NCBI GenBank assembly: GCA_023393895.1
Contig: JAEXBT010000170.1
Location: 1 to 6,811 of the forward strand
Length of the DNA stretch: 6,811 bases
Reading direction: 5' to 3'
DNA from: Pseudomonadota bacterium
Lineage (GTDB): Bacteria; Pseudomonadota; Gammaproteobacteria; Xanthomonadales; Xanthomonadaceae
This document shows, piece after piece, positions 1 through 6,811 of this stretch. Each line of letters begins with the position of its first letter. Position 1 is the first letter of the stretch. The position numbers were made by a program, and so were the translations under genes. Under the pieces are notes generated by a model, which made no database searches, was not told where the DNA came from, and saw only the letters and a list, made by a program, of their open reading frames with translations.

Positions 1-539
1 TACCAGCGGATGGCCTCGCTCACATCGCGAGGGCCTCCATATCCGCCTTCGTACGTCAGCCCAACAATGGTCGCCGCCTCTGCATTACCTCGCTCAGCGG
101 CTCTCCGGTACCAGGAACGAGCCGTCGCATGATCGACTGGAACACCCAGTCCATCCTTGTGGATATGACCCATTGTGAACTCGGCGAGTTCATTTCCGGC
201 TGCGGCTGCCCTTTCGCTGATCGCCCGCGCCCGCTCAACGTCCCTCGGCACGCCATGTCCATACAGATAGCTGATACCCAAGTAGGCCGCAGCCTCCGGG
301 CACCCCATCTCGTCCGCCTTGCGAAAGAATTCAACCGCATCGCGGTAGTCCTGCGGCTTCGTTTGGGACTTCCGCGCGTACAACGCTTGGCCCTTCAGGA
401 ACTCGGCCCGCGCAGATTCAGAGCACGGGACCGACAACACCTGCGCGGATGAAGGCACAGCTGCAGCCTCTGAAGCCCACGCATAACTGAGGGCCAGATA
501 AATCAAGAGTCTCGTGGAAACCTGTAGTGCTGCTCTCAT
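1..539 (-). CDS. Sel1-repeat secreted protein, 3' end cut by window edge
   Basis: This reading frame is open from an ATG at 539 to the left edge (179 codons, no stop), so the gene is partial. A Shine-Dalgarno-like GAGGA lies about seven bases before the ATG. Residues 1-27 look like a signal peptide: basic start, hydrophobic core LLIYLALSYA, then Ala-rich possible cleavage sites (AWA, AAA) and no lipobox, which suggests a periplasmic or secreted protein. From about residue 83 there are consecutive 36-residue Sel1 (TPR-like) units with the usual Gly/Ala pattern: AAAYLGISYLYGHGVPRD, then AEFTMGHIHKDGLGVPVD, then AATIVGLTYEGGYGGPRD, ending at AIRW where the window stops. Sel1 repeats form helical scaffolds for protein-protein contacts; the partner cannot be told from sequence. 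It lies 62 bases downstream of the unknown gene at 602-1264 and is probably cargo of the integrated element. The fold is fairly certain, the role unknown. Confidence 0.85.
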   Translation of the reverse strand, partial: MRAALQVSTRLLIYLALSYAWASEAAAVPSSAQVLSVPCSESARAEFLKGQALYARKSQTKPQDYRDAVEFFRKADEMGCPEAAAYLGISYLYGHGVPRDVERARAISERAAAAGNELAEFTMGHIHKDGLGVPVDHATARSWYRRAAERGNAEAATIVGLTYEGGYGGPRDVSEAIRW

Positions 540-601
540 GCCGAATCCTCGATTGGTAGCCACCAAGACATCACACATCCTAACGCTACACGACCGAACA
601 C

Positions 602-1264
602 CTACCGCCCCTTGAGCCAATCGCGCACTGTGAAAAAGGAAAAATGGTACTTGGTCGCCAAGCGCTCGGCTGCCAACTCCTTGTTCCGATGCAGCTCGGG
701 GCTGCTGTCAAACTCTTCCAAACAGCGACGCTTGCGCTCTCCCCGCGCTTTGTGCAGAGCGCTCGCGCCGACGCGTGCTGACTGGGACCGTTGCTCCCTC
801 AGTTCGCCTTCCGTCACTGTCCTGCCACCTAGTCCCATCGCAAAGGCGATTGCGATACAAGCTTGGGTCGTATGCATCTCCACATCTGCAGCATCTCCCA
901 CACTGGCAGCATCACTCGCCTCAGCGAGGTGCCACAGCGCAAGGGCGCCGTGCAACTCGAACTCGCTGTAGTGAGGCGATAGATGCTCCTCAGCAAGCAA
1001 GCCGAAGACCAATGACAACTCCGAAACTCCGTCTACGGCAAAGCCGCAAAATGTTGAACCCGACCGATCACACATCTCCAGCAATTCGGCCACGGCATCG
1101 AGGCGCGCGTCCAACTCGCCGAGCGTCGACGCTCCGCTGGACAATAGCCCCATCCGCAAAAGGAACGCGGTGGTAGCGTCCCATGCCATAACTCCCCCAG
1201 CAAAGGGATCGCGCTGCACGCCCGCGCGCAACGCTGCTAGCAGGTCCCAACCTCTCTCGCTCAC
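602..1264 (-). CDS. Hypothetical island protein with possible C-terminal helix-turn-helix
   Basis: I do not recognise this protein. I chose the GTG at 1264 because GAGGA lies eight bases upstream (1273-1277), giving 220 residues beginning MSERGWDLLAAL. A TTG at 1333 would give 243 residues but has only a weak ribosome site, and the next ATG is further inside (about 1189). The middle is helical and Ala/Leu/Glu-rich, with no enzyme motif I can name. A basic stretch (HKARGERKRR) precedes a C-terminal segment of about 25 residues (NKELAAERLATKYHFSFFTV then RDWLKGR). That end resembles short helix-turn-helix tails that I remember in hypothetical proteins of Xanthomonadaceae and Pseudomonas islands, so DNA binding is a guess. 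There are no membrane segments or signal peptide. It lies downstream of the integrase and the small gene at 1358-1675, on the same strand and probably in the same transcript. Confidence 0.65.
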   Translation of the reverse strand: MSERGWDLLAALRAGVQRDPFAGGVMAWDATTAFLLRMGLLSSGASTLGELDARLDAVAELLEMCDRSGSTFCGFAVDGVSELSLVFGLLAEEHLSPHYSEFELHGALALWHLAEASDAASVGDAADVEMHTTQACIAIAFAMGLGGRTVTEGELREQRSQSARVGASALHKARGERKRRCLEEFDSSPELHRNKELAAERLATKYHFSFFTVRDWLKGR

Positions 1265-1357
1265 GTCGCACGTCCTCGCATGCTTTCGGATTCGTTCTAT
1301 CGGCGGCGCTAGCTCTATGGGAAGTGGACACAATTTCCGCTTGGTCAGAACGACCCG

Positions 1358-1675
1358 TCACCGCCCAACAGAACTGACAAGACCCAGAGTCTGAGCCATG
1401 CGCAGTGCCAGCTCGCGATTGGAGAAGCGCCATGGGGCCCTCTTGGTCGGACAATGCCCCCGATACAGGAAGAACCCCGGCAACGGATCTTGCCGTAGCC
1501 AGCGAGTGAACCCACGCCCGCGAACCAGAATCCCCCAATCACCTGCGTCTGTTCGAGCAGGCTGGATCGCCCTCACGAGCCGCAGTGCCCTGGCCCCCTG
1601 AAGGCCACACAGGTCGATCGTCCCGAACCCTTCATCGGCGAGTAAATTTCGACTCTTGCTGCGGTCAGTTGTCAT
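1358..1675 (-). CDS. Small basic protein of unknown function, coupled to integrase
   Basis: I do not recognise this protein (105 residues from the ATG at 1675). The start region is strong: a perfect AAGGAGGT at 1681-1688 lies inside the last codons of the integrase gene, followed by two ATGs in a row (1678 and 1675). The second sits at the better distance from the Shine-Dalgarno. The start overlaps the integrase stop at 1665-1667, so translation is probably coupled to the integrase. The product is Arg-rich and basic, with aromatic-rich stretches: ILVRGRGFTRWLRQDPLPGF at about residues 49-68 and KRAPWRFSNRELALRM near the C-terminus. Two cysteines are visible (about 23 and 75). No membrane segment or signal peptide is seen. 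A directionality or DNA-binding role would fit its position and charge, but nothing in the sequence proves it. The frame stays open beyond its single TGA into the next gene. Confidence 0.6.
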   Translation of the reverse strand: MTTDRSKSRNLLADEGFGTIDLCGLQGARALRLVRAIQPARTDAGDWGILVRGRGFTRWLRQDPLPGFFLYRGHCPTKRAPWRFSNRELALRMAQTLGLVSSVGR

Positions 1676-2888
1676 CATCCACCTCCTTGGAAGTTGCTTT
1701 CAGGGTGGCGTCCAGATGATCAGCCCATGCCTGCATCATCCTGATACGTTCAGCCAAGTACTCAGCGTGGTTGTAACTCGCACGAACCTTGCTGCGCTCC
1801 TGATGAGACAGTTGCCGCTCGATCGCATCACCGCTCCACCCCATTTCATTCAGATGGGTCGATGCCGTCGCACGAAACCCGTGTGCAGAAAAATAGCCGC
1901 CATACCCCAACCGCTCGAGGCAGCGATTCAGCGTCGTCGGCGACATTGGCCGGCGCGGATCTCTGTGATTGGGAAAGAGCAGGGGCCGAGATCCATCTAT
2001 TGCCTTGAGTCGGCGGAGTAATGCAACCGCCTGGGTACTCAGCGGCACAATGTGCCGCGTCCCCATCTTCATACGCTCTTCGGGAATCTCCCAAACAGCG
2101 TTGTCCAGATCCAACTCTGCCCAGGCAGCATCACGAAGCTCCTTCGGACGCACAAAAGTAAGCAGCAGGAGCCGGAGCGCGATCTTGATGGGCGGGGAAC
2201 TTCCGCTGGCCTCCACTTTGACGAGAAGGTCAGCTATCTCGCTCCTGGCCAAAGCCCTCTTGTGCTTGGTTCTTGGCTTTGTCACTGCGCCCTTCAGCGC
2301 AGCAGCTGGATCTTGGTCAGCTCGCAAAGTCACAACTGCGTAGCGGAAAACCGCAGACGACCACTGTCGAATCAAGATTGCGATCGATGGCGCTCCGCGG
2401 CGTTCTACACGCTTCAAAATTTCAAGGAGATGTGCGGCACGTACGGACTTGATCGGAAGCCGTCCGATATCCGGGAAGACATCCTGCCTCAGTACCGTCT
2501 CCACCTGGGAGAGGTAGTAGCTCGTCCAGCCGCTCTTCTTCCGCTCAATCCATTCCTTGGCAATCGCCTCGAAAGTATCCGCGGCCGCTCTGGCAGCGAC
2601 CAGCCGCTTTGCGCGCCGATGAGCCGCCGGGTGGATCCCCTCTTTGACCAGCTCACGGGCCTTGTCGCGCTCTGTCCGCGCCTGCTGCAACGAGATCGCG
2701 GGATACTCCCCCAAGGCGAACAGGTTCTCCCTACCCGCGATGCGATAGCGATATCGCCAGCACTTGGTGCCGGTCGGCTGGACTGCCAAGAACAAGCCAT
2801 TTCCATCGGAGAGCTTGTAGGCCTTTTCGGCCCGCTTTGCGTTCCGAATTCGGGCATCCGTGAGGCGTGCAGCTGGACGGGCGGCCAT
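1665..2888 (-). CDS. P4-type tyrosine integrase of an integrative element
   Basis: This is a site-specific tyrosine recombinase that would integrate and excise the element; it is close to the usual 400 residues (407 from this start). The N-terminus (LTDARIRNAKRAEKAYKLSD, then GNGLFLAV) is the DUF4102 arm-binding domain of P4-like integrases. A SAM-like core-binding domain starts near residue 105 (TFEAIAKEWIERKKSGW). The catalytic set is complete: Arg247 (TFVRPKELRDAAW), Lys274 (KMGTRHIVPLS), His336 and Arg339 (AHGFRATAST), His362 (LSHQERSKVRASY) and nucleophile Tyr372 (ASYNHAEYL). I chose the ATG at 2888 because family members normally begin just before LTDxxIRNAK; the ATG at 2936 would add 16 residues encoded by an inverted repeat. 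Neither start has a good Shine-Dalgarno. The gene lies beside the junction in trpG and reads away from it, as expected for an integrase next to its attachment site. Confidence 0.95.
   Translation of the reverse strand: MAARPAARLTDARIRNAKRAEKAYKLSDGNGLFLAVQPTGTKCWRYRYRIAGRENLFALGEYPAISLQQARTERDKARELVKEGIHPAAHRRAKRLVAARAAADTFEAIAKEWIERKKSGWTSYYLSQVETVLRQDVFPDIGRLPIKSVRAAHLLEILKRVERRGAPSIAILIRQWSSAVFRYAVVTLRADQDPAAALKGAVTKPRTKHKRALARSEIADLLVKVEASGSSPPIKIALRLLLLTFVRPKELRDAAWAELDLDNAVWEIPEERMKMGTRHIVPLSTQAVALLRRLKAIDGSRPLLFPNHRDPRRPMSPTTLNRCLERLGYGGYFSAHGFRATASTHLNEMGWSGDAIERQLSHQERSKVRASYNHAEYLAERIRMMQAWADHLDATLKATSKEVDDDN
1681..1688 (-). promoter_or_regulatory. Perfect Shine-Dalgarno for the gene at 1358-1675
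   Basis: On the minus strand this reads AAGGAGGT, a full match to the 16S rRNA 3' end. It lies inside the 3' end of the integrase gene. GG and then ATGATG follow, so the second ATG (1675) has about six bases after the GGAGG core and the first (1678) only about three. This decides the start of the downstream gene and suggests much stronger initiation than at the integrase itself, whose own start has no clear ribosome site. Confidence 0.75.
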
Positions 2889-2929
2889 AAGCGGGTATCG
2901 GGGTGAAGTACCCCCTACGATACCCGCTT
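2889..2929. repeat. 12-bp perfect inverted repeat touching the integrase start
   Basis: AAGCGGGTATCG at 2889-2900 and CGATACCCGCTT at 2918-2929 are perfect reverse complements. Inside them, GGGT (2901-2904) and ACCC (2910-2913) could extend the stem after a four-base bulge, leaving a five-base loop. The element GGGTA recurs on both strands. The repeat ends exactly at the ATG at 2888 and covers codons 3-16 of the longer integrase reading (start at 2936). It could be an integrase or excisionase binding site, an operator, or an mRNA hairpin that limits integrase translation. The structure is seen directly; the function is inference. Confidence 0.7.
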
Positions 2930-2936
2930 TTCTCAT

Positions 2937-3042
2937 GGCTGAAACTGGACAAAGAAAGACGCCATCGGACGTAATCCGTTGTCCATACAGGACATTTTTC
3001 TAGATTTCGGATTCCGCCGAACCTTCTCGGACACCGATGTCA
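2937..3042. other. Gene-free element end, probable arm of the attachment site
   Basis: This stretch of about 106 bases between the trpG remnant and the integrase has no plausible gene. It holds several copies of GTCC-type words: GTCCGA twice on the minus strand, TGTCC twice more. It also has one small dyad, TGTCC-ATACA-GGACA at 2980-2994, followed by TTTTT on the plus strand. Such repeated short words next to an integrase are what arm-type integrase or excisionase sites look like, but the copies are short and the reading is inference. The small hairpin is too weak to be a convincing terminator for trpE transcripts. Confidence 0.4.
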
Positions 3043-3063
3043 GTTATCGATCATCAGGATCAT
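3040..3063 (-). pseudogene. trpG: trpG 5' remnant (7 codons), split by element insertion
   Basis: Nine bases after the trpE stop an ATG at 3063 opens a frame reading MILMIDN and then TGA (3040-3042). TrpG/PabA glutamine amidotransferases characteristically begin (M)xLxIDNYDSFT, and trpG directly following trpE is the normal arrangement in this bacterial group. The ribosome site GAGGTGAT (3067-3074), overlapping the trpE stop, is a near-perfect Shine-Dalgarno seven bases before this ATG. So this was a true, translationally coupled gene start. The match to TrpG is lost exactly after IDN, where family members continue with Tyr-Asp-Ser. The rest of trpG, which makes ammonia from glutamine for TrpE, should lie at the far end of the element, outside this window. 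Confidence 0.8.
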
Positions 3064-3066
3064 CGG

Positions 3067-3074
3067 ATCACCTC
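3067..3074 (-). promoter_or_regulatory. Shine-Dalgarno of trpG, overlapping the trpE stop
   Basis: The minus strand reads GAGGTGAT, eight bases complementary to the 16S rRNA 3' end. It shares its first bases with the trpE stop codon, and GAGG ends seven bases before the ATG at 3063. The arrangement is typical for equal synthesis of TrpE and TrpG subunits. It now serves only a seven-codon frame. Confidence 0.75.
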
Positions 3075-4548
3075 ACAGCCCGCGCGCCGCCTGTGCCACC
3101 GCGCGAAACAGCGCGCGACCCTTGTTCATCGTTTCCTCCCATTCCTTCGCCGGATCGGAATCGAAGACGATGCCCGCGCCCGCTTGCACGTGCAGCTGCC
3201 CGTTCTGGATCACTGCGGTACGGATGGCGATGGCGGTGTCGGCGTCACCGTTCCATGCCAGGTAGCCGACTGCGCCCGAATACACGTTGCGCTTGACCGG
3301 TTCGAGTTCACGGATGATCTCCAGCGCGCGGATCTTCGGCGCCCCGCTCACCGTGCCGGCCGGAAACGCGGCGCGCAGCACGTCCATTGCGGTGAGCCCT
3401 TCGCGCAGTTGCCCGCTCACCTCGCTGACGATGTGCATGACATGGCTGTAGCGCTCGATGCCGAAACGCTCACCCACCACCACGCTGCCCGGCTCGCTGA
3501 CCCGGCCGACATCGTTGCGTCCCAGGTCGATCAGCATCAGGTGTTCGGCACGCTCCTTGGGATCAGCCAGCAGTTCAGCCTCGAGCGCGGCATCGGCTTC
3601 AGCGTCGGTGCCGCGCGGGCGCGTGCCGGCGATCGGACGAACGGTGACGGTGCCATCCTGCAGTCGCACGAGGATTTCCGGCGATGAGCCCACCACCTGC
3701 GTCGCCCCGGTATCGATGAAGTACATGTAGGGCGAGGGATTCATCGCCCGCAGCGCGCGGTACACGTCCACGGGCCGCGCGGCGAATGGCACCGACAGCC
3801 GCTGGCTGAGCACCACCTGGAAGGCATCGCCGGCACGGATGTAATCCTTGGCGCGTTCTACCGCGCCTATGAAGCCCTCACGACTGAAGCCGCTGACGAA
3901 ATGACTCTCGTCCAGCGCGGCGCCCTGCAGGCTTTCCGGATAGCCGCTGCCGGCCTGGCGCAGGCGGTGCACGAGCGCATCGATCCGGCGCTGGGCGCGC
4001 GCCCAGGCATGCGGCGTGGCCGGGTCGGCGTGGACCACCAGATACAACCTGCCCTTCAGGTTGTCGAAGACCGCCAGTTCGTCGCTGTGCATCAGCAGGA
4101 TGTCAGGCGTACCGAGTTCATCGCGCGCGTGCCCGTCTGCGAAGCGCGACTCGATGTAGCCGATCGACTCGAAGCCGAACCAGCCCACCAGCCCGCCGGC
4201 GAATCCCGGCAGCCCGGCCACCGGCGGTACCTGCTGGGCGGCACGCAGGCGCTCGACCTCGGCCAAGGGGTCTTCAACCTGGCGACGCTCGACTTCCACG
4301 CCATCCTCGCTCACCCGAAGTTCGAAGCCGTGGAAGGCGTAGACACGCCGCGCCGGCAGGCCAATGATCGACCAGCGCCCGAAGCGCTCGCCGCCCTCGA
4401 CCGATTCGAACAGGTAGGTATGCGGCCCATCGGCCAGTTTCAGGTAGACCGACAGCGGCGTGTCGAGGTCGGAAAGGACCTCGCGCACCACCGGGATCAG
4501 GGTGTGGCCGTCGTCGGCCAGGCGTTGGAACTCAGCTTCGGTAATCAC
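3073..4548 (-). CDS. trpE: Anthranilate synthase component I
   Basis: TrpE converts chorismate to anthranilate, the first committed step of tryptophan synthesis, using ammonia supplied by TrpG. I chose the GTG at 4548 (491 residues, beginning [16 protein letters not shown]) because GAGAGA lies just upstream and the family starts here; the extra 16 residues from 4596 do not look like TrpE. Visible motifs are LFES (46-49, part of the tryptophan feedback site), NPSPYM (270-275), PIAGTRPRG (305-313), [12 protein letters not shown] (335-346), the catalytic His in SHVMH (about 372), GTVSGAPK (398-405) and the magnesium-site segment EWEETMNK near 469. All key residues seem intact, so the enzyme should be functional and feedback-inhibited. 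Upstream are a probable promoter and a short Trp-containing ORF; downstream is the broken trpG start and then the integrase. Confidence 0.97.
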
Positions 4549-4648
4549 GCGGATTCTCTCGGTGGAACGGGCAGGCGGAACGCAGGGCGGATGCACGCCA
4601 CCCTCGCCAGTAACCGTTGCCGGGAATGTCCGCGTAAACCAAACTCAT
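4532..4648 (-). other. Upstream ORF with two Trp codons overlapping trpE start
   Basis: An ATG at 4648 opens a 38-codon frame that ends at TGA 4532-4534. It thus runs past the trpE GTG (4546-4548) in another frame. Its middle reads YWRGWR, with Trp codons at 4607-4609 and 4598-4600. A 7-bp hairpin (AGGGTGG pairing with CCGCCCT, one G-T pair, about 4584-4604) overlaps the second Trp codon. No uridine tract follows, so a classical terminator-type attenuator is not seen. A predicted promoter would start transcription about at this ATG, implying leaderless translation. It could be a leader peptide controlling trpE translation, or chance in GC-rich DNA where TGG is common. Confidence 0.3.
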
Positions 4649-4654
4649 TCCCCT

Positions 4655-4684
4655 ACTCTAATCGACATCCCCGCCTGCGTTCAA
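4655..4684 (-). promoter_or_regulatory. Possible sigma70 promoter for trpE
   Basis: On the minus strand TTGAAC (4679-4684, four of six consensus bases) is followed after 18 bases by TAGAGT (4655-4660, four of six, including the important first, second and last positions). The -35 overlaps the stop codon of the lipid-kinase tail. The predicted start point is about 4648, leaving a leader of about 100 bases before trpE. This is the only convincing promoter-like pair I found in the gap of 132 bases between the two genes. Confidence 0.4.
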
Positions 4685-4890
4685 AGCCCCCGGGTGACGG
4701 CAAGCGCACACCCGGCAGGCAGTTGCATCCGCAGGCGGCCGGGCACGCAATCGATGCGGAAAGCCCGCGCCTGCAGCGGCTCTCCATCTAGGTTGAGGGT
4801 GAGCGGATCGTCGGAAACGATCTCAATCCACGGCAACTGCGCACGAACCGCCACCCGGTCGAGTGCCGCCGCCTTGCCCTCGGCCATCAC
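4681..4890 (-). pseudogene. Detached C-terminal piece of the YegS-like lipid kinase
   Basis: This frame overlaps the end of the kinase gene (GTG at 4890 overlapping its TGA) and supplies the C-terminal end that the upstream frame lacks. It reads [18 protein letters not shown], then a beta-rich stretch with the family hallmark LNLDGEPL (about 32-39), then [15 protein letters not shown]. In intact relatives this is continuous with the [11 protein letters not shown] segment. Moving from the kinase frame to this one needs a -1 shift, as expected after loss of one base, or of any number one more than a multiple of three. It could be reached by re-initiation at the overlapping GTGATG, but as a separate protein it would have no known fold of its own. 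Confidence 0.75.
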
Positions 4891-5612
4891 GGTGCCGAGC
4901 GACCGTGGAGCGGCGGGATGATGGTGAGATCGAGCAGACCGTCATCGATCATCGCGTCCGGGCACAGGGCCTGCCCGCCACCGGCCTGGCGTCCATTGCC
5001 GATGCCGAGCGCGATGAACTCGCCCGACCATTCGAAACCCGGTCCGTTGAAGCGCGCGTGCTGCGGTTCGATATGCCCCAGCTTGCCGAGTCCGGTGATG
5101 ACGTAGGCCAGGCCACCGAGGAGGTCCTTGAGCGTCTCATGCGTCTCCACCGTGACATCGGTGCCGAAGCCGCCGCTGGCGAGGTTGGCGCACCAGTGTG
5201 CCTCCTCGCCACAACCGATCCGCAGCAGGTCAATCGACCGTGGCTCGGCATCGCGCGCCAGTTCCAGCGCGGCAAGCGGGTCGTCCGGGATGCCGGCAGC
5301 AGCGGCGAAATCGTTGGCGGTGCCCAACGGCACCAGCGCCAGCGCGGGCAGCTCGTTGGCATCACGCGTGCTGCGCGCCAGCGCAGTGGCCACGGCACTC
5401 AGGGTGCCATCACCACCGCCGGCCACCACCGTGGCGACGCCGACAGCCATCGCCTCATCCACCAGCCTCGAGGCATCGCCCGCTTCCCAGGTCACCCGCA
5501 CCTGCAGCGGCACACCGGAATCGCACAACGTGTGCACAGCCTGACGCACGCCGTCGTCGTCGGCGGACTTGCCGTTGAGGATCAGCATCATCGGAGCGGG
5601 AGGCGGCGACAT
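4887..5612 (-). CDS. YegS-like lipid kinase, frameshifted before its C-terminus
   Basis: This belongs to the YegS/DgkB/BmrU family, which phosphorylates diacylglycerol, phosphatidylglycerol or related lipids at the inner membrane; the exact substrate here is unknown. The N-terminal ATP-binding domain has LILNGKS (9-16), the nucleotide motif VVAGGGDGT (62-70) and PLGTANDFA (95-103). The second domain holds [10 protein letters not shown] (141-150) and [20 protein letters not shown] (205-224), which includes metal-binding acidic residues. After [11 protein letters not shown] (about 237) the frame leaves the family and ends at TGA; the missing 70 or so residues are encoded in another frame just downstream. 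I kept the ATG at 5612; the ATGs at 5591 and 5588 are alternatives and none has a strong ribosome site. It was probably a functional kinase until recently, because the rest is well conserved. A sequencing error cannot be excluded. Confidence 0.88.
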
Positions 5613-5742
5613 CGGCGCACGCTATCGCCGGCCATCTGCAGCGCGCGTGAAAGCCGCCGTCATAGGGATGTCACATCGGCCACGGAGCATGGAAGGCCAT
5701 AGCCAAGGAAGAAACGCGGAGGATGGAGCCTCCAAGTCTTCC
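5613..5742. other. Intergenic gap between rpe hairpin and lipid kinase
   Basis: No gene is visible here on either strand. The only structure noted is GATGT-C-ACATC (5665-5675), an 11-base dyad that could be an operator or chance. I found no convincing -35/-10 pair for the lipid kinase. Confidence 0.4.
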
Positions 5743-5770
5743 AAGCCGGTGCCGCGAGGCGCCGGCTTTT
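5743..5770. terminator. GC-rich hairpin after rpe, possible terminator
   Basis: AAGCCGGTGCC (5743-5753) and GGCGCCGGCTT (5758-5768) form an 11-bp stem with one G-T pair and a four-base GCGA loop, twelve bases downstream of the rpe stop. On the plus strand it is followed by TTTT. On the minus strand, the direction of rpe, only two Ts close the stem before GG. It is therefore a strong hairpin well placed to end or protect the rpe transcript, but not a textbook minus-strand intrinsic terminator. Confidence 0.55.
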
Positions 5771-5780
5771 CAATGGCCGC

Positions 5781-6455
5781 TCAGCCGGCTTCGGCCGCGG
5801 CCTTCATCCGCGAGACGACATCGCGGTAATCCGGCTGGCCAAAGATCGCGCTTCCGGCCACGAAGGTGTCGGCACCTGCCGCAGCAATCTCGCCGATGTT
5901 CTCGGGCTTGACGCCGCCGTCGATCTCGAGTCGCACCGCTCGCCCGCTGGCATCGATGCGTTCACGCACGCGCCGCAACTTGTCGAGCGTGGAGGGGATG
6001 AAGGCCTGCCCGCCGAAACCCGGATTGACCGACATCAGCAGGATGTAATCGAGTTCGTCCAGCACGTAGTCGAGCACCTCGACCGGCGTTGCCGGGTTGA
6101 GCACCAGCCCAGCCTCGCATCCCAGCGATTTCACCAGCTGGATGCTGCGATGCACATGGCGACTGGCCTCCGGGTGGAAGCTGATATGGGTCGCGCCCGC
6201 TTTCGCGAACATCGGGATGATCGCGTCGACCGGCTCCACCATCAGGTGCACGTCGATCGGCGCGGTCACGCCATGCTTGCGCAGGGCTTCGCAGACCAGC
6301 GGGCCGATGGTGAGGTTGGGCACGTAATGGTTGTCCATCACGTCGAAATGGACCCAGTCGGCGCCGGCGGCGAGCACGTTGTCGACTTCCTCGCCGAGCC
6401 GGGCGAAGTCGGCCGAGAGGATCGAAGGCGCGATGACGGTGGACTGGCGGCTCAT
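5781..6455 (-). CDS. rpe: Ribulose-phosphate 3-epimerase
   Basis: Rpe interconverts ribulose 5-phosphate and xylulose 5-phosphate in the cytosolic pentose phosphate pathway. The protein has 224 residues, normal for the family, and a full TIM-barrel pattern: IAPSILSAD (8-16), [18 protein letters not shown] with metal/catalytic His36 and Asp38, DVHLMV with His70, the flexible loop [10 protein letters not shown] (141-150), EIDGGV with catalytic Asp179, and the phosphate-binding GSAIF (201-205). The start is fixed by family alignment and by GAGGAAG upstream. The ATG overlaps the stop of the J-domain gene (ATGA), so the two are translated together. In related genomes rpe lies near trpE, so this is native context. 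Confidence 0.97.
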
Positions 6456-6793
6456 CGTTGCGTCTTCCTCAGCTGCTTGATGCGGTCGTAGGCGGCATTG
6501 ATTTCGCGCGCCCTTGCCTCGGCTTGCGCACGCAGTTCCGGCGCGGCATCGGCGTACCGGTCCGGGTGGTACTGCGAGATGAGGCGGCGGTAGGCCAGGT
6601 CGATCTCCGCATCGCTCGCCTCGCGGGTCAGGCCGAAGACGCGATAGGGCTTCTGCCGTGCACCCAGGCCGAACCAGTCGGCATCGAACGCATGGCCGAC
6701 CAGAAGGCCGATACCCGCGCCGAACAGGGGGTTGCCGCGCAGCAGCAGCACGCCCGCGATCAGGCCCAGCAGTTTTCCGTACCAGCGTCCCAT
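6452..6793 (-). CDS. Short membrane-anchored J-domain protein (DjlA-like)
   Basis: This is a probable DnaK co-chaperone fixed to the inner membrane. Residues 8-33 form a Gly-rich hydrophobic segment ([25 protein letters not shown]), like the N-terminal anchor of DjlA. It is followed, after a short linker, by a J domain (about 48-110) with YRVFGL, helix II ([13 protein letters not shown]), the essential HPD triad at 76-78, and helix III ([17 protein letters not shown]). DjlA of E. coli has a TerB-like domain between anchor and J domain; here it is absent, so the 113-residue protein is a minimal form rather than true DjlA. The ATG at 6793 has no clear Shine-Dalgarno. The stop overlaps the rpe start by four bases. 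A direct link with the epimerase is unknown. Confidence 0.9.
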
Positions 6794-6811
6794 ATGCGCA
6801 GTTTACCCGGC

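Follow-up and report, generated by a model that had tools for sequence, protein, structure and literature searches.

The closest described systems are ICEs of the SXT type, which enter prfC at its 5' end and rebuild it into a gene for a hybrid protein; SXT/R391 variants occupy other sites, tRNA-Ser and pabA among them (both points as given in the accessible portion of PMC7251087). ICESh95, from Shewanella, is integrated at pabA according to the accessible passages of four papers (PMC6541609, PMC7251087, PMC6947025, PMC10011109), the first of which presents it as an SXT/R391-type hybrid ICE and places its integrase near that of the type 2/3 SXT/R391 ICEs at tRNA-Ser. In X. arboricola, either the hrp cluster or an 8-kb region with hsdR, hsdS and prrC lies between ltaE and trpG (excerpts of PMC4686621), and the available part of a Pseudomonas study lists trpG within a predicted prophage, for which the study could not confirm an attachment site (PMC12456005). 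The literature was searched for trpG as the target of an integrase, subscription papers being mostly outside the scope of the search, and no description was found. The preliminary description of the locus considered here did not know its target as a described one, which agrees with the search for trpG but has to be tempered by the published use of the paralogue pabA in ICESh95.

The locus lies in a stretch of 6,811 nt (hereafter the window), contig JAEXBT010000170.1 of assembly GCA_023393895.1, from a Pseudomonadota bacterium of the Xanthomonadaceae. We are highly confident that what lies in the window is the trpE-side end of an island whose integrase targets the start of trpG or pabA, and that the gene has been displaced rather than inactivated. 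The host side carries, all on the minus strand, DnaJ-domain, ribulose-phosphate-epimerase and diacylglycerol-kinase-type genes and then trpE (3073..4596, the longest open frame, its start provisional), assigned to anthranilate synthase component I by PF00425, PF04715 and a score of 537.8 bits against the NCBIfam model TIGR00564 (cut-off 517.7). The trpE stop codon (3075-3073) overlaps the Shine-Dalgarno sequence of the interrupted trpG, GAGGTGATC (3066..3074, minus strand), a 9-nt match to the anti-Shine-Dalgarno complement. There follows the trpG remnant, MILMIDN and a stop (3040..3063, minus strand; ATG at 3063-3061, TGA at 3042-3040), which forms the trpE-side end of the element and one of its attachment sites. 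From 3080 to 3030, the minus strand reads GGCTG TGA GGTGATCCG ATG ATC CTG ATG ATC GAT AAC TGA CATCGG. A near-perfect Shine-Dalgarno sequence, an ATG and MILMIDN-stop directly behind trpE had been seen here before, and both the sequence and the BLASTN breakpoint described below bear this out.

Beyond the remnant, 175 bp away and in the same direction, begins a gene for a tyrosine integrase of 407 amino acids (1665..2888, minus strand; 407-aa database form P0001), or of 423 if an in-frame ATG upstream, at 2936, is the start. Arm-DNA-bind_3 (PF13356), Phage_int_M (PF22022) and Phage_integrase (PF00589) all exceed their Pfam cut-offs, a set of domains which we take to be what the name P4-type denotes. 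Then come open reading frames of 106 aa (1358..1678) and 243 aa (602..1333), neither with a Pfam match, and a gene for a Sel1-repeat protein (3..620; PF08238) that runs off the window, all three on the minus strand. GC content is 59.2% on the element side (1-3046) and 66.9% on the host side (3064-6811), so both the P4-type integrase and the lower-GC DNA previously claimed for this side are present. A search across the window found no tRNA gene; in place of this usual target of P4-type integrases, the junction has the trpG remnant.

With just 21 coding bases, the remnant might match trpG by chance, or encode a leader peptide of the trp operon, with the integrase beside it by coincidence. What lies upstream of related integrases makes this hardly credible. 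Close relatives of the integrase were sought in five samples, whose genome sets may overlap but whose positive genomes do not: the family of a Lysobacter genome (E up to 1e-120, 9 of 395 genomes positive), the family of a Dyella genome (E up to 1e-120, 4 of 147), the family of a Pantoea genome (E up to 1e-125, 1 of 246), the order of the same Pantoea genome (E up to 1e-110, 5 of 384), and 369 genomes from across the class (E up to 1e-125, none, a sample of little weight alone). All 19 positive genomes have a remnant of the form M/V-x-L-M/L-I/L-D-N/H on the strand of the integrase gene, 150-177 nt before the start adopted for that gene. Counting the window, a remnant of the trpG/pabA type is found upstream of the integrase at 20 of 20 close loci, even where trpE is not directly upstream. 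Among 100 loci of distant integrases, 12 were too short upstream to be scored, and none of the other 88 has a remnant; nor was one found on the opposite strand, a control, at any of 108 loci. With these counts, the MILMIDN remnant is beyond chance. A stop at codon 8 was considered as a general rule for the remnants and discarded: 13 of the 20 have it, and seven extend to 19-26 codons.

The close and distant integrases also differ in their neighborhood. P4-type integrases usually target tRNA genes, as the preliminary description pointed out, and a tRNA gene does lie within 500 bp upstream of the integrase gene at 65 of the 88 distant loci, as compared to none of the 20 close ones. P4-type tRNA islands thus share the domain architecture of the present integrase, but its clade, with the remnant at 20 of 20 loci, uses the 5' end of a protein-coding gene. 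In a quick tree, the remnant-bearing integrases form one clade (19 of 110 rows, SH-aLRT 96), consistent with one change of target. The tree took in 110 of 120 rows, 10 that were too short (including that of the close locus L107) having been dropped; support is given as SH-aLRT, and some outer rows are long-branched.

The same locus in relatives without the element, put forward earlier as a check on the insertion, places the break in homology at the remnant. trpG was sought in G218, which carries a related element, and in 30 relatives, with a match at 1e-60 in 30 of the 31 genomes; G218's own locus aside, 29 uninterrupted trpG loci were read. The start L-M-I/L-D-N-Y-D-S-F is unbroken in all 29. 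The match to trpE ends 2-13 nt before the start of trpG in 12 of them, 43 nt before it in one and 729-1140 nt before it in eight, and in the remaining eight trpE was not found in the trpG locus. The earlier claim that an insertion in trpG had split it from trpE therefore stands as to the insertion in the 5' end, but the two genes can be said to be split only where they are adjacent, within 13 nt of each other, as in these 12 of 29 loci.

Five of the adjacent trpE-trpG loci, which represent the empty site, were compared by BLASTN with the occupied ones. In the window, the match to them gives out at trpG nt 20-22 (window positions 3044-3042). With G218, homology extends to trpG nt 23 on the trpE side and sets in 1-4 nt ahead of the ATG on the trpG side, the two ends of the element overlapping by 24-27 nt against the five intact loci. 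The layout of the Shine-Dalgarno sequence in the window is comparable to that at the adjacent trpE-trpG sites of relatives. That homology to intact sites runs through the codons of the remnant and ends there argues against a chance match or a leader peptide, as does the repeat shared by the paired ends in relatives.

That repeat belongs to the preferred reading, an integrase that targets the start of trpG or pabA. The direct repeat previously expected at both ends is present within the first eight trpG codons in the 19 relatives: the run of identity between the two ends is 14-23 bp in 12 of the 19 pairs and 4-13 bp in the other seven. Paired ends are identical at trpG nt 11-14 in all 19 genomes and at nt 11-17 in 17, where the sequence is TGATCGA in most and TGCTCGA or TTATCGA-like in some; the ends of two genomes (G338 and G1102) differ also inside the proposed overlap. 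The crossover is bracketed by differences between the ends: GTG versus ATG in two genomes and changes in codons 2 and 3 elsewhere lie 5' of it, and GAT versus GAC lies 3' of it. The paired ends point to TGATCGA, within codons 4-6, as the crossover (overlap) region, which would be 3047..3053 (minus strand) in the window and in relatives is at the center of an ATGCT...AGCAT inverted repeat. In many copies the half-sites ATGCT and AGCAT form an inverted repeat centered on nt 14, which fits an overlap of 7 bp. The half-site on the element side is AACTGACAT in the window (3037..3045, minus strand) and AACTAGCAT in many relatives; it mirrors the ATGCT start region and may serve the integrase as a core site. 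At most loci, it is this half-site that provides the stop codon of the remnant.

Three putative arm-type sites for the integrase are found farther into the element: GCGGGTAT at 2920..2927 (minus strand), a degenerate version, GGGGGTAC, 12 bp from it at 2908..2915 (minus strand), and an inverted GCGGGTAT at 2891..2898 (plus strand) that adjoins the integrase start. Relatives have similar repeats at both ends of the element, mostly 12 bp apart, with a third, inverted copy beside the start of the integrase gene in most. Their arrangement makes them look like arm-type sites, to which the integrase would presumably bind. In the window, the two direct repeats and the inverted one (2889-2930) also overlap the likely leader of the integrase gene, and they could fold over its start codon, perhaps as a means of autoregulation.

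We propose that the integrase recognizes the conserved coding start of the TrpG/PabA amidotransferases (M-L/I-L-M/L-I/L-D-N-Y) and that strand exchange would take place within TGATCGA, codons 4-6. Integration would leave the ribosome-binding site of the host, the start codon and seven codons beside trpE as a short, dead-end frame. At the far end, the body of trpG would be joined to a start codon, leader and first codons borne by the element and encoding an N-terminus that is identical or nearly so, and the gene would therefore be displaced and given a new start rather than inactivated. On excision the original trpE-trpG junction would be re-formed, and the element in the window may still be capable of this.

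The window, however, ends inside the element, and the far end lies beyond it. If that end had been lost or rearranged, trpG would have been destroyed, and the host would be an auxotroph for tryptophan (perhaps also for p-aminobenzoate) or would depend on another trpG. We consider this very unlikely, since relatives with the same insertion have kept the gene: an uninterrupted frame above the TIGR00566 cut-off is present in 19 of 19 occupied genomes, and because of this the tryptophan auxotrophy raised as an alternative in the preliminary description is not expected. In 13 of the 19, trpG or pabA is where the proposal predicts it, on the contig and strand of the integrase gene and beyond it; in the other six it is on another contig. 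The distance from integrase gene to target gene is about 14 kb in G132, 17 kb in both G1102 and G1171, 110 kb in G374, and 24, 33, 38, 38, 51, 55, 66, 68 and 73 kb in the rest, although in tandem cases it may span more than one element. Tandem insertion is suggested in four of the 19 genomes (G1102, G1489, G1393 and G1241), where the signature of an element end occurs also before the remnant. Upstream of the remnant at four loci with pabA-type genes (L183, L200, L201 and L202), an ATCAA box is seen in all four and CGGGTA sites in three.

The displaced frame begins at the copy of the repeat borne by the element. In two of the 19 end pairs, GTG beside the integrase gene has as its counterpart ATG at the restored gene, and others differ at codon 2 or 3. 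The comparison of ends thus indicates that in relatives the element supplies the start codon and first codons of its target, and the far end of the element in the window would be expected to restore trpG likewise. The target is the sole TIGR00566 match above cut-off in all nine occupied genomes of the Lysobacter family (E up to 0.001), and the sole match at E up to 1e-40 in all four of the Dyella family. Six genomes of the Pantoea family or order have two matches at E up to 1e-40, with the element at the better one. The target genes of three of these six were compared with further models. In G1102 and G1171, the target gene exceeds the cut-off for aminodeoxychorismate synthase component II. 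The second TIGR00566 match of G1102 is fitted best by the model for a TrpGD fusion, and the frame after its target gene resembles, by eye, argD; in E. coli, argD is beside pabA. Of the cut-offs listed, that of the broad family is the only one passed by the target gene of G1185. The clade found here, then, has members that use pabA, the paralogue of trpG.

How a displaced trpG might be expressed is a separate matter. At a fixed distance before the ATG at the far end is an A/T-rich box, ATCAA, which resembles an IHF site (by the consensus we assume for IHF) or a -10 element. It had been anticipated that the element would have to give trpG a promoter and perhaps codons. The codons are indeed given, in relatives. 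As to a promoter, promoter-like scores have a median of 6.5 at the far end and 1.7 at uninterrupted loci, with AT contents of 0.625 and 0.30, and at the 18 of 19 far ends that were scored they do not exceed those of shuffles (median z -0.44). In view of both points, the higher score was not accepted as proof of a promoter. The integrase gene runs in the same direction as the interrupted gene at 20 of 20 loci, and, given this orientation, host transcription could enter it. The element may supply transcription to trpG as well, but the joint proposition, that the element drives trpG from its own end and that the integrase gene is read off the host's trp transcript, seems doubtful to us. If it were true, damage to the trpG end of the element would cost the host its tryptophan and folate pathways, and a shortage of tryptophan could raise integrase and excision.

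It might also be supposed that the island is ancient and immobile, fixed between trpE and trpG like the R-pyocin cluster that lies between these genes in P. aeruginosa (accessible part of PMC7344871). Some copies of the element may be dead, given the in-frame stop inside the integrase match in three of the 19 relatives (G218, G338 and G1489). However, the elements are patchily present (9 of 395 genomes in the Lysobacter family) and occur in several host groups, those scanned differ in cargo, both ends carry repeats, and four of 19 genomes have what appear to be tandem insertions. All this points to repeated site-specific integration, and a fixed island is highly improbable. The DNA pattern of an occupied end, sought independently of the integrase, was found in 7 of the 395 genomes (none with the reversed pattern, as control); six of the seven are integrase-positive, and three of the nine integrase-positive genomes were missed by the pattern. 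One locus, L141 (G044:C198), shows the signature of an occupied end although its genome gave no integrase match at 1e-120, and is possibly a fragment of an element. A collection of plasmids gave no match to the integrase at 1e-100, and a collection of phages gave 168 records at 1e-60; the best of these has 46.6% identity, as compared to at least 56% among members of the clade. E. coli genomes gave no blastn match to the integrase gene of one relative (L204).

Repeated integration at the start of trpG or pabA, the reading we prefer, would have brought different genes to different hosts. Parts of five elements were scanned on the basis of simple ORF calls, and restriction-modification or phage-defense domains (BREX, Gabija, GmrSD, R-M) were found in all five. 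That of G132 (9 of 12 ORFs) has a DNA methylase, ResIII and GmrSD, and that of G1102 (10 of 16) has GmrSD, a DNA methylase, AAA ATPases, primase-helicase domains, IS66 and a second integrase. The G218 element (19 of 23) has GmrSD and MobI, with BrxA, BrxC, PglX and PglZ among the PADLOC matches listed; the G839 element (24 of 33) has MobA/MobL and RadC, with GajA, GajB and a type III methylase among those listed. In G296 (43 of 62), the matches listed include an endonuclease and methylase, MobA/MobL and RadC. Also among the matches listed for this element (L196-L199) are a TcdB_toxin_midN-domain protein and FG-GAP domains. Genes of the mobilization type (MobI, MobA/MobL) were the only ones of their kind, no conjugation apparatus being found among the genes listed for the five partly scanned elements. 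The second integrase of G1102 (L193:4073-5014) is of a different sort (PF12835, Integrase_1) and lies between the integrase gene and pabA, a stretch that may be composite.

Set beside the systems described at the outset, the island is like SXT/R391 elements in that the 5' end of a protein-coding gene is entered and restored. This likeness to SXT in prfC had been drawn before, with the consequence that the far end must restore trpG or leave the host an auxotroph, and in relatives the far end does carry trpG with a start supplied by the element. The site, however, is trpG and not prfC, and the prfC att sequences, as given in the accessible part of PMC6541609, bear no resemblance by eye to the trpG site. 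ICESh95 is like members of the present clade in its target, pabA, but the accessible published description sets it apart as an SXT/R391-type hybrid ICE that does not split trpE from trpG. The ltaE-trpG islands of X. arboricola occupy the same interval as that used by the elements of G296 and G374, in which a threonine-aldolase-type gene (PF01212) lies between trpE and the remnant; the accessible text of PMC4686621 mentions no integrase there and no attachment site in trpG. Elements that act in this manner are known, but the trpG target and the integrase clade appear to be new, ICESh95 having been compared by its description.

Where its relatives use tRNA genes, this clade of integrases uses the start of a biosynthetic gene, and it follows the coding sequence from trpG to the paralogue pabA in Gammaproteobacteria, accompanied by restriction and phage-defense genes. 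The MxLMIDN remnant, together with the GCGGGTAT repeats, provides a landmark for locating such islands, and annotators should take care not to call a trpG at such a junction broken. For the biology of these bacteria, the elements offer a natural test of what follows when a mobile element comes to form the 5' end of a gene on which both tryptophan and folate depend.
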